From Prochlorococcus sp. AG-402-N10 (GTDB taxonomy: Bacteria > Cyanobacteriota > Cyanobacteriia > PCC-6307 > Cyanobiaceae): a stretch of 64,000 nucleotides of DNA. The position numbers and the translations under genes were made by a program. Shown here one piece after another: positions 16,303 to 25,867 of the stretch; positions within the stretch are counted from its first letter, which is position 1; every line of letters starts with the position of its first letter. Under the pieces are notes generated by a model that was not told the DNA's origin, searched no databases, and was given only the letters and a program-made list of their open reading frames with translations. Location: positions 62,001 through 126,000 of the forward strand of contig QCIU01000001.1 of assembly GCA_003216465.1 (NCBI GenBank), given 5' to 3'.

Positions 16303-18078
16303 TTATTCTTCTAAATCAATAATTTCCCCGTTAAAGAAATTGGCTAAATTTTTACTGCTATCATTAAAAGATGCTTTTTGGGGATTGTCAGGAGGAATAT
16401 TTGCCCTATTAAGATCACTGCTATTTTTTGCCTTATTTTTACTTGGACTATTAATATGTTCTTCTTGTAATTTTGTAGAGGTTGTATTATTGATTTTTTT
16501 GCTAGAGAAATTAAGTTTTATTTGATCACCAAAAACTTTTATAACTGCATTTTCAATTATTACTTTTCGACTTTTGATCATGTTTTCCCAGTTTGGAGAT
16601 AATGCTATTAAAACTTCATTCGAATCAATACTTGCAAGTTCTGCCTGCTGTGAAAGTAACATTCTTGTCGATGGTAATTCTAACTTAGAGAGAATTAACT
16701 CCCATTTTTCTTTTAAATTATCAGTTTGATTATTATGAGAAATAGTTTTAACACCCTCTTTATTTATTAATTCCTGACTATTAAAATTGTTTGATTCGCT
16801 TTGAATTTTGATTTTATCAGATATAACCTCTTTATTAATTAATTCCTGACTATTAAAATTGTTTGATTCGCTTTGAATTTTGATTTTATCAGATATAACT
16901 TCTTTATTAATTAATTCCTGACTATTAAAATTGTTTGATTCGCTTTGCTTGTTATTTACATTACTAGCTATTTTTTTTATGTCCGTATTTTCAATAAGAC
17001 TTGTTAAGTGTATTTCTAACCATAATCTTGGATTATCGCTTGTTTTGATTTGATACTCAACGTTTTTTAGCTTATTATGCCAATCAATAATCCTTGTTTT
17101 ATTAATTTTATTAGCGAATTTATTCAATTCATTTTGAAAATCAATAGATGTATAGAAAATATCTGAATAATTATTATTTATAGTTTTAAGTAATAGATCT
17201 CTAGTGATATTTAATAATCCAATCAATATCTCATTAGGTTCATTACCCGCATCAAATAATTTAGTACAACTGATTAATAAAGACTCTGGATCATTGTTAA
17301 TTAACGCATTGATTAACTTAATTAAATCGTTTTCTGATACTTCTCCAAGTAAGTTCTGAACATTTTTAGTATTGATACCATCAGGAAGAAGACTTAATTG
17401 GTCTAGTAAACTTTGTGCATCTCGCATTCCACCATTCGATCTTTTCGCGATAAGTTGTAGGGCTTGATCTTCAAATTTGATTGATTCTTTACTGGCTATC
17501 TTGGAAAGGTGCTGGAAAATAGTATTCGAGCTTATTCTTTTAAAATCAAATTTTTGACACCTACTTTGAATAGTCTTTAAAACTCTTTCAGGATTTGTAG
17601 TCGCAAGAATAAAAACAACTCTTGCAGGAGGTTCTTCAATAGTTTTAAGTAAAGCATTTGATGCTGCTGTTGAAAGCATATGACATTCATCAATAACATA
17701 TACTTTCCACCTGGCTTGAGTGGGTGCAAATCTTGCTCTATCTATTATTTCTCTTATATTCTCAACACCAGTATTAGATGCAGCGTCAATCTCAATAATA
17801 TCAAGAGCATTGCCATCAGCAATTTGTTTGCATAATTCACATTTTCCACATGGATCAGGTGTGGGTTGGTCAGAATTTAGGCAATTTAATGATTTAGCAA
17901 AAATTCTTGCACTGGATGTTTTCCCCGTACCTCTAGGTCCATTGAAAAGATAAGCAGGCGCAATTTTTTGAGATACTAATGCTTGTTTAAGTGTAGTTGA
18001 TATAAATTCTTGGCCGACCAGCTCATCAAGATTACTAGGTCTGTATTTTTGATGAAAAGGTTTATGGATATTAAGCAT
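16303..18078 (-). CDS. dnaX: DNA polymerase III subunits gamma/tau (clamp loader)
   Basis: 591 residues. The AAA+ motor contains Walker A GPRGTGKTS (47-55), the zinc-binding cysteines C66, C77, C80 and C83, the DECHM Walker B box (130-134), and the SRC arginine finger in TIQSRCQKFDF. DnaX forms the clamp loader that places the beta clamp on DNA. There is no intein, unlike some cyanobacterial dnaX genes. Residues about 378-440, in the linker behind the AAA+/collar region, hold two and a half copies of a 24-residue repeat (see the repeat feature). It follows clpX by 59 bp on the same strand. Confidence 0.97.
   Translation of the reverse strand: MLNIHKPFHQKYRPSNLDELVGQEFISTTLKQALVSQKIAPAYLFNGPRGTGKTSSARIFAKSLNCLNSDQPTPDPCGKCELCKQIADGNALDIIEIDAASNTGVENIREIIDRARFAPTQARWKVYVIDECHMLSTAASNALLKTIEEPPARVVFILATTNPERVLKTIQSRCQKFDFKRISSNTIFQHLSKIASKESIKFEDQALQLIAKRSNGGMRDAQSLLDQLSLLPDGINTKNVQNLLGEVSENDLIKLINALINNDPESLLISCTKLFDAGNEPNEILIGLLNITRDLLLKTINNNYSDIFYTSIDFQNELNKFANKINKTRIIDWHNKLKNVEYQIKTSDNPRLWLEIHLTSLIENTDIKKIASNVNNKQSESNNFNSQELINKEVISDKIKIQSESNNFNSQELINKEVISDKIKIQSESNNFNSQELINKEGVKTISHNNQTDNLKEKWELILSKLELPSTRMLLSQQAELASIDSNEVLIALSPNWENMIKSRKVIIENAVIKVFGDQIKLNFSSKKINNTTSTKLQEEHINSPSKNKAKNSSDLNRANIPPDNPQKASFNDSSKNLANFFNGEIIDLEE
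16757..16946. repeat. 72-bp tandem repeat inside dnaX
   Basis: The block TTCCTGACTATTAAAATTG recurs at 16771, 16843 and 16915, exactly 72 bp apart. Adjacent copies are almost identical, differing at a few positions such as ATAACCTC versus ATAACTTC. Because 72 is a multiple of three, the array is in frame and encodes the repeated segment QSESNNFNSQELINKE followed by VISDKIKI in DnaX. The low divergence suggests recent duplication by slippage or unequal recombination. Confidence 0.95.
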
Positions 18079-20325: not shown

Positions 20326-21738
20326 TTATTTTTTTTCTTTTTTATTTATTTTAGTTTGACTTCCTTTTTTTGTAGTTAATTTTGTTGTTTTTGTTGTTTT
20401 TGTTGTTTTTGTTGTTTTTTCAATTATTTCTTTTACTTCTGAATTTTCTTCAAGCCAATTAATTAACTTTTCTTTTAGTAGATCATTACGAACCACATTT
20501 TTTAATTTTTGAATATCTATTTGTTTCGGTGATTTTGAAATTTCATCTTCATATTCTTTCATTTTTTGTTCTATTTCTTTATCCTCGACTGTAATATTCT
20601 CTTTTTCTGATAATGCTTTTAAAGCTAAATTCCTATGTACATTTTTTTCTGCTTGAGGACGAGTTGATTCAGCTAAGGATTTTACTAACTCTGGAGTAAA
20701 AGTAGATTTAATATCCATCCCTTGTTGAGCAAACCTTTGAGCTGTTTGTTCAATATTATTTCTAACTTCAATATCAATCATTGCTTTTGGAATATCGGCA
20801 TCTAATTCTTTTGAAAGTGCATCCATTAAAGCTTCAATTTTGATATTTTTTTGAGTATTTTCAAAATTTTCCTTGAGTTGGGCTTCTATATCTTTTTTTA
20901 GTTCTTCTAATGAGTCTTTATTTCCAGATTGTTTTGCAAAATCATCATTTAGTTCAGGTAATTCTTTTTCTTTAAGGTCTTTGAGGCTTACTTCAAAAAT
21001 TGCCTTTTTACCTCTTGAATCTTCATGAGTATAGTCTTTAGGAAATTGGAGATTGAGAGTTTTATTCTCGTCAATTTTCATACCAACAATACCTTCAACG
21101 AATCCTGGAATCATTTTGTTCTTTTCTAATTCAAGATCCATTGATTCACTAGATCCCCCATCTATTTCTTCATTAGAATCTTTATAAATGCCTTTAAAAC
21201 TTACTACCGCAATATCTCCTAACTTGGCAGGCCTGTTAATTACTGGAACAATATTCGCTAATTGATTTCTTGATTTTTCTAGAGCTTCATTTATGGACTT
21301 AGGATCAAATTTACTTTTTTTAATCTCAACAGATATTCCTTTTGATTTTTTTAATTTTAGTTGGGGTGCAACATCAGTTTGTAGAGTAATTTTTAATGGT
21401 TTTTCCGGACTAAAAGTTTTAAGTAATGAGTCAAATCCGTCAACCAACTCTGGTTCACTTAGTGGCTCTATGGATTCTTTTTTTAAAGCTTCATTCCAAG
21501 ATTTCTCAATTATTTTTTCTAAAGCAGAAGCATGAAGTTGATTAATACCGATGCGTTGTATTAATACTTGTCTTGGAATTTTGCCAAGCCTAAAACCAGG
21601 AATTTTAGCTGAACGACTAATGGAATTTATTGTTTCATTTACGCATGATATGCATGTATTAGATGGTATTTCTAATTCAAGTTCAATTCTACTTTGAGGA
21701 AGTGAGGTTGTTTTTACTATTAATGCTTCTTTAATCAT
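20326..21738 (-). CDS. tig: Trigger factor (ribosome-associated chaperone / prolyl isomerase)
   Basis: 470 residues. The N-terminal ribosome-binding domain contains the signature ISRSAKIPGFRLGKIPRQVL at about 42-61 (the GFRxGKxP ribosome-docking loop). An FKBP-type domain follows at about 165-250 (GDIAVVSFKGIYKD, MIPGFVEGIVGM), then a helical C-terminal substrate-cradling domain. The last ~25 residues are low complexity, KTTKTTKTTK then KLTTKKG and a lysine-rich end, encoded by a 9-bp microsatellite. It opens the tig-clpP-clpX-dnaX cluster and is divergent from asd. Confidence 0.97.
   Translation of the reverse strand: MIKEALIVKTTSLPQSRIELELEIPSNTCISCVNETINSISRSAKIPGFRLGKIPRQVLIQRIGINQLHASALEKIIEKSWNEALKKESIEPLSEPELVDGFDSLLKTFSPEKPLKITLQTDVAPQLKLKKSKGISVEIKKSKFDPKSINEALEKSRNQLANIVPVINRPAKLGDIAVVSFKGIYKDSNEEIDGGSSESMDLELEKNKMIPGFVEGIVGMKIDENKTLNLQFPKDYTHEDSRGKKAIFEVSLKDLKEKELPELNDDFAKQSGNKDSLEELKKDIEAQLKENFENTQKNIKIEALMDALSKELDADIPKAMIDIEVRNNIEQTAQRFAQQGMDIKSTFTPELVKSLAESTRPQAEKNVHRNLALKALSEKENITVEDKEIEQKMKEYEDEISKSPKQIDIQKLKNVVRNDLLKEKLINWLEENSEVKEIIEKTTKTTKTTKTTKLTTKKGSQTKINKKEKK
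20381..20420. repeat. 9-bp microsatellite in the 3' end of tig
   Basis: On the plus strand the unit TTGTTGTTT is repeated about four times without interruption, giving the Lys-Thr-Thr repeat in the trigger factor tail. Units are a multiple of three, so a change in copy number would alter only tail length, not the reading frame. Confidence 0.85.
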
Positions 21739-23875: not shown

Positions 23876-25867
23876 ATGCAATCAAGATCAAATTCAACCA
23901 TTAACAGATCTTCCAATAACCCATCAGGATCTAAAAATCATAGCTCCACTCTAAGAGTAATACCATTAGGTGGCTTACATGAAATAGGAAAAAATACTTG
24001 TGTATTTGAATTTGGAGACGAATTAATGTTGGTCGATGCTGGCCTGGCTTTCCCTTCAGATGGCATGCATGGTGTAAATGTTGTCATGCCGGATACAACT
24101 TTTTTAAAAGAAAATCAAAGAAGAATAAAAGGAATGATAGTAACTCATGGACATGAGGATCATATTGGAGGCATTTCTCATCATCTTAAACATTTTAATA
24201 TTCCGATTATTTATGGACCAAGACTAGCAATGTCAATGTTAAGAGGAAAAATGGAGGAAGCAGGCGTTTCTGATAGAACGACAATACAGACAGTAAATCC
24301 GAGAGATGTTGTCAAAGTTGGACAACATTTTTCAGTAGAATTTATTCGCAATACTCATTCAATTTGCGATAGTTTTTCTTTAGCAGTTACTACACCAGTC
24401 GGCACAATTATATTTACTGGTGATTTTAAGTTTGATCATATGCCAGTAGATGGAGAACAATTTGATATTGAAAGAATGGTTCATTATGGTGAGAAAGGTG
24501 TTTTATGTATGTTTAGTGATTCTACTAATGCAGAAGTGCCAGGCTTTTGTCCATCTGAAAAGACTATTTATCCTTCTTTAGAAAAACATATTTCTGAAGC
24601 AAAAGAACGAGTCATCCTTACCACCTTTGCTAGTTCTGTTCATAGAGTGACAATGATCTTAGAGTTGGCGATGAAACACGGAAGAAAGGTAGGTTTGTTG
24701 GGTAGATCGATGATAAATGTTATTGCTAAAGCCAGAGATATAGGTTACATGAAATGCCCAGATGATTTGTTTGTTCCTATTAAACAAATTAGAGATTTAC
24801 CTGATAGAGAAACTTTATTATTGATGACTGGAAGTCAAGGAGAACCTTTAGCTGCTTTAAGTAGAATCTCTCGTGGTGAGCATCAACATGTTCGCCTCAA
24901 AACTACTGATACTGTTATTTTTTCCGCTAGCCCAATTCCAGGGAATACTATTGGTGTTGTTAATACAATAGATAGATTGATGAAAATGGGAGCGAAGGTT
25001 GTTTACGGAAAAGGTGAAAATATTCATGTTTCTGGTCATGGGTTCCAAGAAGATCAAAAATTAATGTTGGCATTAGCAAAACCTAAGTTTTTTGTTCCTG
25101 TTCACGGTGAACATAGAATGCTTGTCTGTCATAGTAGAAGTGCTCAGACAATGGGAGTTCCAAAAGATAATATCTTAATTATTGAAAATGGAGATGTTGT
25201 TGAATTAACTTCTGATTCTATTAATAAAGGAGATCCTGTAAAGGCTGGGGTAGAATTACTTGATAATTCTCGAAATGGGATTGTTGATGCCCGAGTATTA
25301 AAGGAAAGGCAGCAATTAGCTGGTGATGGTGTTGTAACTGTTTTAGCTCCAATAAGTACTGATGGAAAAATGGTTGCTCCACCAAGAGTAAATTTAAGGG
25401 GGGTTGTAACTACTGCAGAACCAAGAAAAATGTCTATGTGGACTGAACGAGAAATTAGTTGGGTTTTAGAAAATAGATGGAAGCAGTTATCTAGGCAAAC
25501 TGGACCTAATAATTTTGAGGTAGATTGGATTGGCGTTCAAAGAGAAATTGAAAATGGTTTAAGTAGAAGAATGAGAAGAGAGTTACAAGTAGAACCTTTA
25601 ATTCTTTGTTTAGTGCAGCCGGCACCAAGTGGAACGCGTGCCTATGTACCAAAGATTACTGAAGATCAAAATAATCATAATAGGAATAGAAATAATCAAA
25701 ATTTTCAAAAAAGAAATAATAATAATAATCCAAATAATTCAAATAATCCAAAAAATCTTAATACTCAAAATAATCCAAAATCTTCAAAAGACTCATTAAT
25801 TAATTCTGAAAAAGAAGAATCCTTTGAGGGTAGGACTAGACGAAGAAGATCAGCAGTAACGTCTTAA
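23876..25867 (+). CDS. rnj: Ribonuclease J
   Basis: 663 residues, a metallo-beta-lactamase/beta-CASP nuclease. The metal site is in VTHGHEDHIGGISHH, with IFTGDFKFDH and the C-terminal VPVHGEHRML histidines. GGLHEIGKNTCVFE near residue 35 marks the RNase J N-terminus. The enzyme has 5'-3' exo- and endonuclease activity in mRNA decay and rRNA maturation. After the core, about residues 595-645 form an Asn-rich low-complexity linker (repeats of NN, NPNN, NNPKN) ending in a basic tip GRTRRRRSAVTS. The stop overlaps the stop of convergent tilS by 4 bp. An aspartate-pathway operon (asd-dapA-rnj) is plausible. Confidence 0.96.
   Translation: MQSRSNSTINRSSNNPSGSKNHSSTLRVIPLGGLHEIGKNTCVFEFGDELMLVDAGLAFPSDGMHGVNVVMPDTTFLKENQRRIKGMIVTHGHEDHIGGISHHLKHFNIPIIYGPRLAMSMLRGKMEEAGVSDRTTIQTVNPRDVVKVGQHFSVEFIRNTHSICDSFSLAVTTPVGTIIFTGDFKFDHMPVDGEQFDIERMVHYGEKGVLCMFSDSTNAEVPGFCPSEKTIYPSLEKHISEAKERVILTTFASSVHRVTMILELAMKHGRKVGLLGRSMINVIAKARDIGYMKCPDDLFVPIKQIRDLPDRETLLLMTGSQGEPLAALSRISRGEHQHVRLKTTDTVIFSASPIPGNTIGVVNTIDRLMKMGAKVVYGKGENIHVSGHGFQEDQKLMLALAKPKFFVPVHGEHRMLVCHSRSAQTMGVPKDNILIIENGDVVELTSDSINKGDPVKAGVELLDNSRNGIVDARVLKERQQLAGDGVVTVLAPISTDGKMVAPPRVNLRGVVTTAEPRKMSMWTEREISWVLENRWKQLSRQTGPNNFEVDWIGVQREIENGLSRRMRRELQVEPLILCLVQPAPSGTRAYVPKITEDQNNHNRNRNNQNFQKRNNNNNPNNSNNPKNLNTQNNPKSSKDSLINSEKEESFEGRTRRRRSAVTS

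Follow-up and report, generated by a model that had tools for sequence, protein, structure and literature searches.

The window analysed here, a stretch of 64,000 nucleotides from Prochlorococcus sp. AG-402-N10, carries on its minus strand a gene for the tau/gamma subunit of DNA polymerase III, DnaX, in which the AAA+ core, the lid and domain III follow one another in order, with Pfam and NCBIfam scores above cut-off. Between this core and a C-terminal domain lies a linker that contains an array of 72-bp tandem units, and the features are arranged as follows.

16303..18078, minus strand: dnaX, DNA polymerase III tau/gamma subunit, 591 aa (open frame; Pfam, NCBIfam)
16726..16983, minus strand: predicted disordered linker, residues 366-451 (pLDDT under 50, in a model that is weak as a whole)
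16755..16947, minus strand: 72-bp tandem array, 2.7 copies, 98% matches (TRF, repeat finder)
16921..16947, minus strand: partial unit QSESNNFNS, residues 378-386 (read from the repeat copies and the translation)
16849..16920, minus strand: full unit 1, QELINKEVISDKIKIQSESNNFNS, residues 387-410 (translation, motif scan, unit comparison)
16777..16848, minus strand: full unit 2, residues 411-434, with a protein sequence identical to that of unit 1 (translation, motif scan, unit comparison)
16705..16776, minus strand: divergent last copy, beginning QELINKEG, residues 435-458 (TRF, translation, unit comparison)
16501..16731, minus strand: C-terminal folded domain, residues 450-526, Pfam DnaA_N-like_STI (AlphaFold2, Pfam)

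The array has a TRF score of 372, the highest of the 17 TRF rows for the window, and no array with a higher score was found in a 449,833-base sample of the 1,559,102-base genome, a sample that includes the window by choice; as a control, 500 dinucleotide shuffles of the 1776-bp dnaX gene gave a maximum score of 75. According to the repeat finder, positions 16755-16826 and 16827-16898 are 99% alike, with a single difference in 72 positions, and for the third copy (16899-16970) the figure over the full 72 nt is 78%, because this copy ends early. The divergent last copy continues into the conserved LKEKW, and the array proper stops within it, at 16755. The locus therefore has the properties of an intragenic minisatellite, that is, near-identical head-to-tail units with a period that is a multiple of three, within an open frame. 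A phage origin is ruled against, as 16700-17000 has no match among 50,697 phage records at E 1e-5. The first-pass annotation had described an in-frame duplication in the DnaX linker that separates the ATPase/collar core from the C-terminal domain, and both the frame and the location are confirmed, its coordinates and residue numbers agreeing with TRF and the repeat finder to about 2 bases and a few residues.

The disorder of the linker is a prediction, drawn from the low pLDDT of these residues in an AlphaFold2 model that was built from 30 sequences and has a mean pLDDT of 57.4 over its whole length. Foldseek relates the core to clamp-loader chains of E. coli, the best E being 6.1e-22; the TM-scores are low (0.3-0.5) because the weak model misplaces the domains. 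A sequence search retrieved no solved chain matching the C-terminal domain.

Matches to the DnaX protein are present in 260 of the 266 genomes of the genus, some of them merely distant paralogues. The whole linker could be read at 141 loci, which, with identical genes counted once and the window included, correspond to 98 distinct dnaX genes; these represent the best matches first and not the whole genus, L223 and later loci having been left out. We grouped the genes by the identity of their pre-linker part into HLI-like genes (at least 0.86; 23, including the window), neighbouring branches (0.81-0.85; 6) and the rest (69), which are mostly HLII-like and include L161, a fragment without core identity. 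The labels HLI and HLII rest on strain identities that we assume, taking G033 to be MED4, G023 to be MIT9515, G012 to be MIT9301, G001 to be MIT9215 and L085 to be MIT 9302, presumably of HLII.

Linker arrays with a period of at least 24 bp were found in 16 of the 98 genes, and they are confined to the HLI-like genes (13/23) and the neighbouring branches (3/6), with none in the mostly HLII-like rest (0/69); the difference between the HLI-like genes and the 69 others gives a Fisher p of 5e-10, shared ancestry being ignored. In all 16 arrays the best-scoring TRF row has a period divisible by three (72, 69, 78, 57, 39 or 81 bp), and periods of 35 and 27 occur among the weaker overlapping rows. 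Linker length varies from 57 to 129 residues in the HLI-like genes and is 87-91 residues in 62 of the 69 others, the extremes of which are 60 and 93. Two genomes assembled in one contig carry arrays of this kind, of 72 bp x 2.3 (100%) in G033 and of 78 bp x 2.2 (97%) in G023. Among the titles and abstract openings listed by our searches of open-licence literature, we found no earlier report of repeats in Prochlorococcus dnaX. Two loci are peculiar in other ways: the contig of L156 (G105) stops partway through a tandem repeat of another kind in the DnaX linker (NIETKPSDDLVK, two copies), and the reading frame of dnaX in L170, from the one-contig genome G024, is interrupted within the linker, which may be a sequencing error.

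To follow the history of the array, we built a tree from the DNA of 36 of the 98 genes, leaving out the linker; it shows at least 8 changes of array presence or absence and at least 21 changes of linker length. Four close relatives, with end branches of 0.0025-0.014, contain four full units (L037), two (L008), one plus a shortened one (L013) and one (L047), and their linkers reach from 57 residues in L047 to 129 in L037, so that copy number differs between related lineages at the level of species. The end branch of the window has 0.1 changes per site, and its placement among the HLI-like genes is not settled by the tree. As its two full units are 99% alike and match the units of the other 28 genes compared at 78% at best, the array of the window is young, and its duplication or homogenisation would fall in about the last tenth of the end branch if the units change at least as fast as the core. 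Such homogeneity within a gene is not a general rule: the two units of L004, L005 and L007 are 90%, 96% and 90% alike within each gene, and 96%, 99% and 96% alike to a unit of L037. This greater closeness to L037 suggests that the two-unit state of that sub-branch may be partly inherited, and L047 and L067 may then have lost, and L037 gained, units. The array is thus real, recent and recurring. The duplication had been proposed to be recent and perhaps polymorphic between strains. It is recent, and copy number differs between related species according to array counts, units and tree; within a species it may vary as well. The alignment of dnaX across many Prochlorococcus genomes that had been suggested as a check gives differing unit numbers, and the objection that the repeat is old and fixed fails, since the relatives do not have one set of diverged copies in common.

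The spacing of the units seems to be older than the copies themselves. A motif profile, itself seeded from units of the genes being scanned, was used to look for KELINK-like starts at a spacing of exactly 24 residues. Of the HLI-like or neighbouring genes, 13 have no array; such a pair occurs in 11 of them and in none of the 69 others. A looser text pattern, written after the sequences had been viewed, recovers the 24-residue spacing in 50 of these 69 genes, which share ancestry and are not 50 independent cases; in 300 rounds with shuffled linkers the count averaged 0.1 and never exceeded 1. From these comparisons of sequences, we regard the 72-bp register as old and the near-identity of the window copies as young, and the old KELINK pair is likely to have been the seed for slippage.

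Using one unit from each of 19 genes, we obtained a pN/pS of 0.45 for the six KELINK columns (resampled 0.34-0.68), of 0.88 for the next six (0.73-1.06) and of 0.91 for the last twelve (0.68-1.13); the core has a pN of 0.071 and a pS of 0.415, a ratio of about 0.17. Outside KELINK the linker is therefore almost free to change, with a pN/pS of about 0.9.

We consider it probable that a minisatellite of recent origin has arisen, in frame, in the disordered spacer of DnaX, where slippage or unequal recombination recurs in the old 72-bp register and its products are tolerated. The two old KELINK-like motifs, which start 24 residues (72 bp) from each other, would provide a register in which replication slippage or unequal recombination would duplicate and delete the unit repeatedly, chiefly in the HLI branch. 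Selection would preserve the frame and, to a mild degree, KELINK; changes of spacer length would otherwise be tolerated because the spacer depends on frame more than on sequence. We infer that the linker is disordered in vivo as well, and that the number of copies matters little. A process acting freely does not explain the array-free HLII-like genes (0/69), which count against it because HLII-like genomes have as many arrays elsewhere. Also contrary to this reading are the units of L004, L005 and L007, which fit a unit of L037 better than one another, and the failure of the profile to detect a motif pair in any of the 69 others.

With regard to function, a tolerated spacer is the most likely reading and a docking motif a minor case. 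In the latter, the array would be a tuned tether or docking array, each KELINK unit binding a replisome partner such as DnaB, and the number of units or the length of the linker would be selected. Such a role agrees with KELINK being the slowest-changing portion of the unit, with the different copy numbers of close relatives and with the DnaB-binding domain IV that PMC11470591 places in the region after the core of the E. coli protein. We nevertheless regard it as unlikely, given that linkers as different as those of L047 and L037 occur among close relatives, that the unit is nearly free to change outside the motif and that HLII-like genes manage without an array. An extension of this idea, in which the HLI spacer is a fast tuning dial and the HLII spacer, nearly fixed, is under another control, with a gamma-like product made by slippage at a conserved A8, appears to us very unlikely; if it were true, slippage would change the number of KELINK-bearing 24-residue units within HLI species, and the altered tether or number of docking sites would act on the coupling of helicase and polymerase.

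The third reading, a programmed frameshift element in which slippery sites in the units determine how much of a shorter gamma-like product is made relative to tau, is highly improbable. It draws on dnaX being a known frameshifting gene in other bacteria (PMC3711429) and on the A-runs of these linkers. In the window, an A8 run lies immediately ahead of the array (16971-16978, minus strand, which is the coding strand; residue 367), and the longest A runs in the linkers of the other 22 HLI-like genes measure 5-7. However, no slippery heptamer is conserved in the units across 32 genes, which disfavours a frameshift role of the units, and the full units of the window have no run of six A.

A-runs also occur in the array-free linkers. 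Among 68 HLII-like genes, the second ELIEKK motif is written with A8 (GAA AAA AAA) in 40 of the 42 that have EKK there, the expectation from codon shares being 61% and the count at other EKK sites 2/10, and in 34 of the 40 the +1 frame meets a stop 3 codons later. This A8 is a candidate slippage site for a gamma-like product, as judged from the sequences of genes that share ancestry, so that the count is not one of independent cases. At the linker end, T_TTA_AA stands in the zero frame in 85 of the 98 genes, with a stop after one codon of the -1 frame in 53, and this may be due to codon usage alone.

It is hardly credible that the array is an assembly artefact of a short-read draft, even though the window genome consists of 35 contigs and the contigs of several relatives end in the DnaX linker, for its copies differ by a base and arrays are found in many separate assemblies, the comparable ones of the one-contig genomes G033 and G023 also disposing of the objection of an assembly error; the array is very probably not an artefact. 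The contig breaks in the linker of five HLI-like genomes (G055, G066, G067, G069 and G143) hint at longer, unassembled arrays, but weakly: in the same set of 30, eight HLII-like genomes (G082, G088, G117, G120, G123, G128, G134 and G229) also have contigs that end there, between residues 350 and 453. In four HLII-like loci, L178-L181 (G229, G088, G134 and G082), the contigs end at DnaX residue 350 (three) or 361 (one).

Arrays with a TRF score of at least 150 were also counted in 400-450 kb samples of five genomes, giving 3 for the window genome, 5 and 6 for the one-contig HLI-like genomes G033 and G023, and 4 and 5 for the HLII-like G001 and G012. Without the dnaX arrays, the samples of the window genome (G000) and of G033, both of which contain dnaX by choice, have 2 and 4, against 6, 4 and 5 in those of G023, G001 and G012. 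A general excess of tandem repeats in HLI was not seen across these samples, and what is particular is the contrast between the branches at dnaX, not the presence of an array. Contrary to the suggestion that such a duplication is unusual in a streamlined genome, arrays lie in the same linker of 13 of the 23 HLI-like genes and number 3 to 6 in each of the samples.

Several of the sampled arrays are in frame in other proteins, among them the N-terminus of FtsY (Pfam SRP54), and by our reading a Gly-rich RNA-binding protein, the GroEL tail and small lipoproteins are further hosts. L203, L261, L241 and L281, from HLI-like and HLII-like genomes, agree in having two arrays near the contig start, at about 11.9 kb and about 16.3 kb, with periods or copy numbers that differ; in L203 the hosts are the N-terminus of an FtsY-like protein and a Gly-rich RNA-binding protein. 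The window itself contains a 9-bp repeat at 20380-20419, with 4.4 copies that are 100% alike; it lies in the tail, rich in Lys and Thr, of a 470-aa protein at 20326-21738 that we read as trigger-factor-like. There are also degenerate 9-bp and 30-bp repeats at 25665-25789, near the end of a 664-residue open frame that we read as ribonuclease-J-like.

The dnaX array is thus a recent case of an ordinary kind of repeat that recurs in one branch of Prochlorococcus. As a young minisatellite in a tolerant spacer, it would mean that an essential single-copy replication gene of a small genome tolerates repeated change of spacer length. With linker lengths that span 57 to 129 residues, the DnaX proteins of the relatives make up a natural series for measuring the role that is assumed for the tau tether. 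Short-read assemblies may break or miscount at this locus.

Compared with the other array proteins of Prochlorococcus, DnaX shares tandem units in flexible parts within the same genomes and differs in unit length; moreover, two of the other arrays recur at corresponding positions in samples of both kinds, HLI-like and HLII-like, while none of the HLII-like dnaX genes read has an array. More generally, disordered protein regions contain tandem repeats that are mostly of duplication origin, as stated in a census (Delucchi et al. 2020, PMC7230257). The in-frame units within a predicted disordered stretch resemble those of the census, and the difference is that here one locus was traced through a clade, with arrays of several periods. 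In E. coli tau, an unstructured linker leads to the DnaB-binding and polymerase-binding domains (PMC11470591), and the linker of Prochlorococcus likewise joins the ATPase/collar core to what follows, as it does for domains III-V in that account. Unlike E. coli tau, the Prochlorococcus linker has no known DnaB binding, and it leads to a C-terminal domain that matches Pfam DnaA_N-like_STI, for which a sequence search gave no solved chain.
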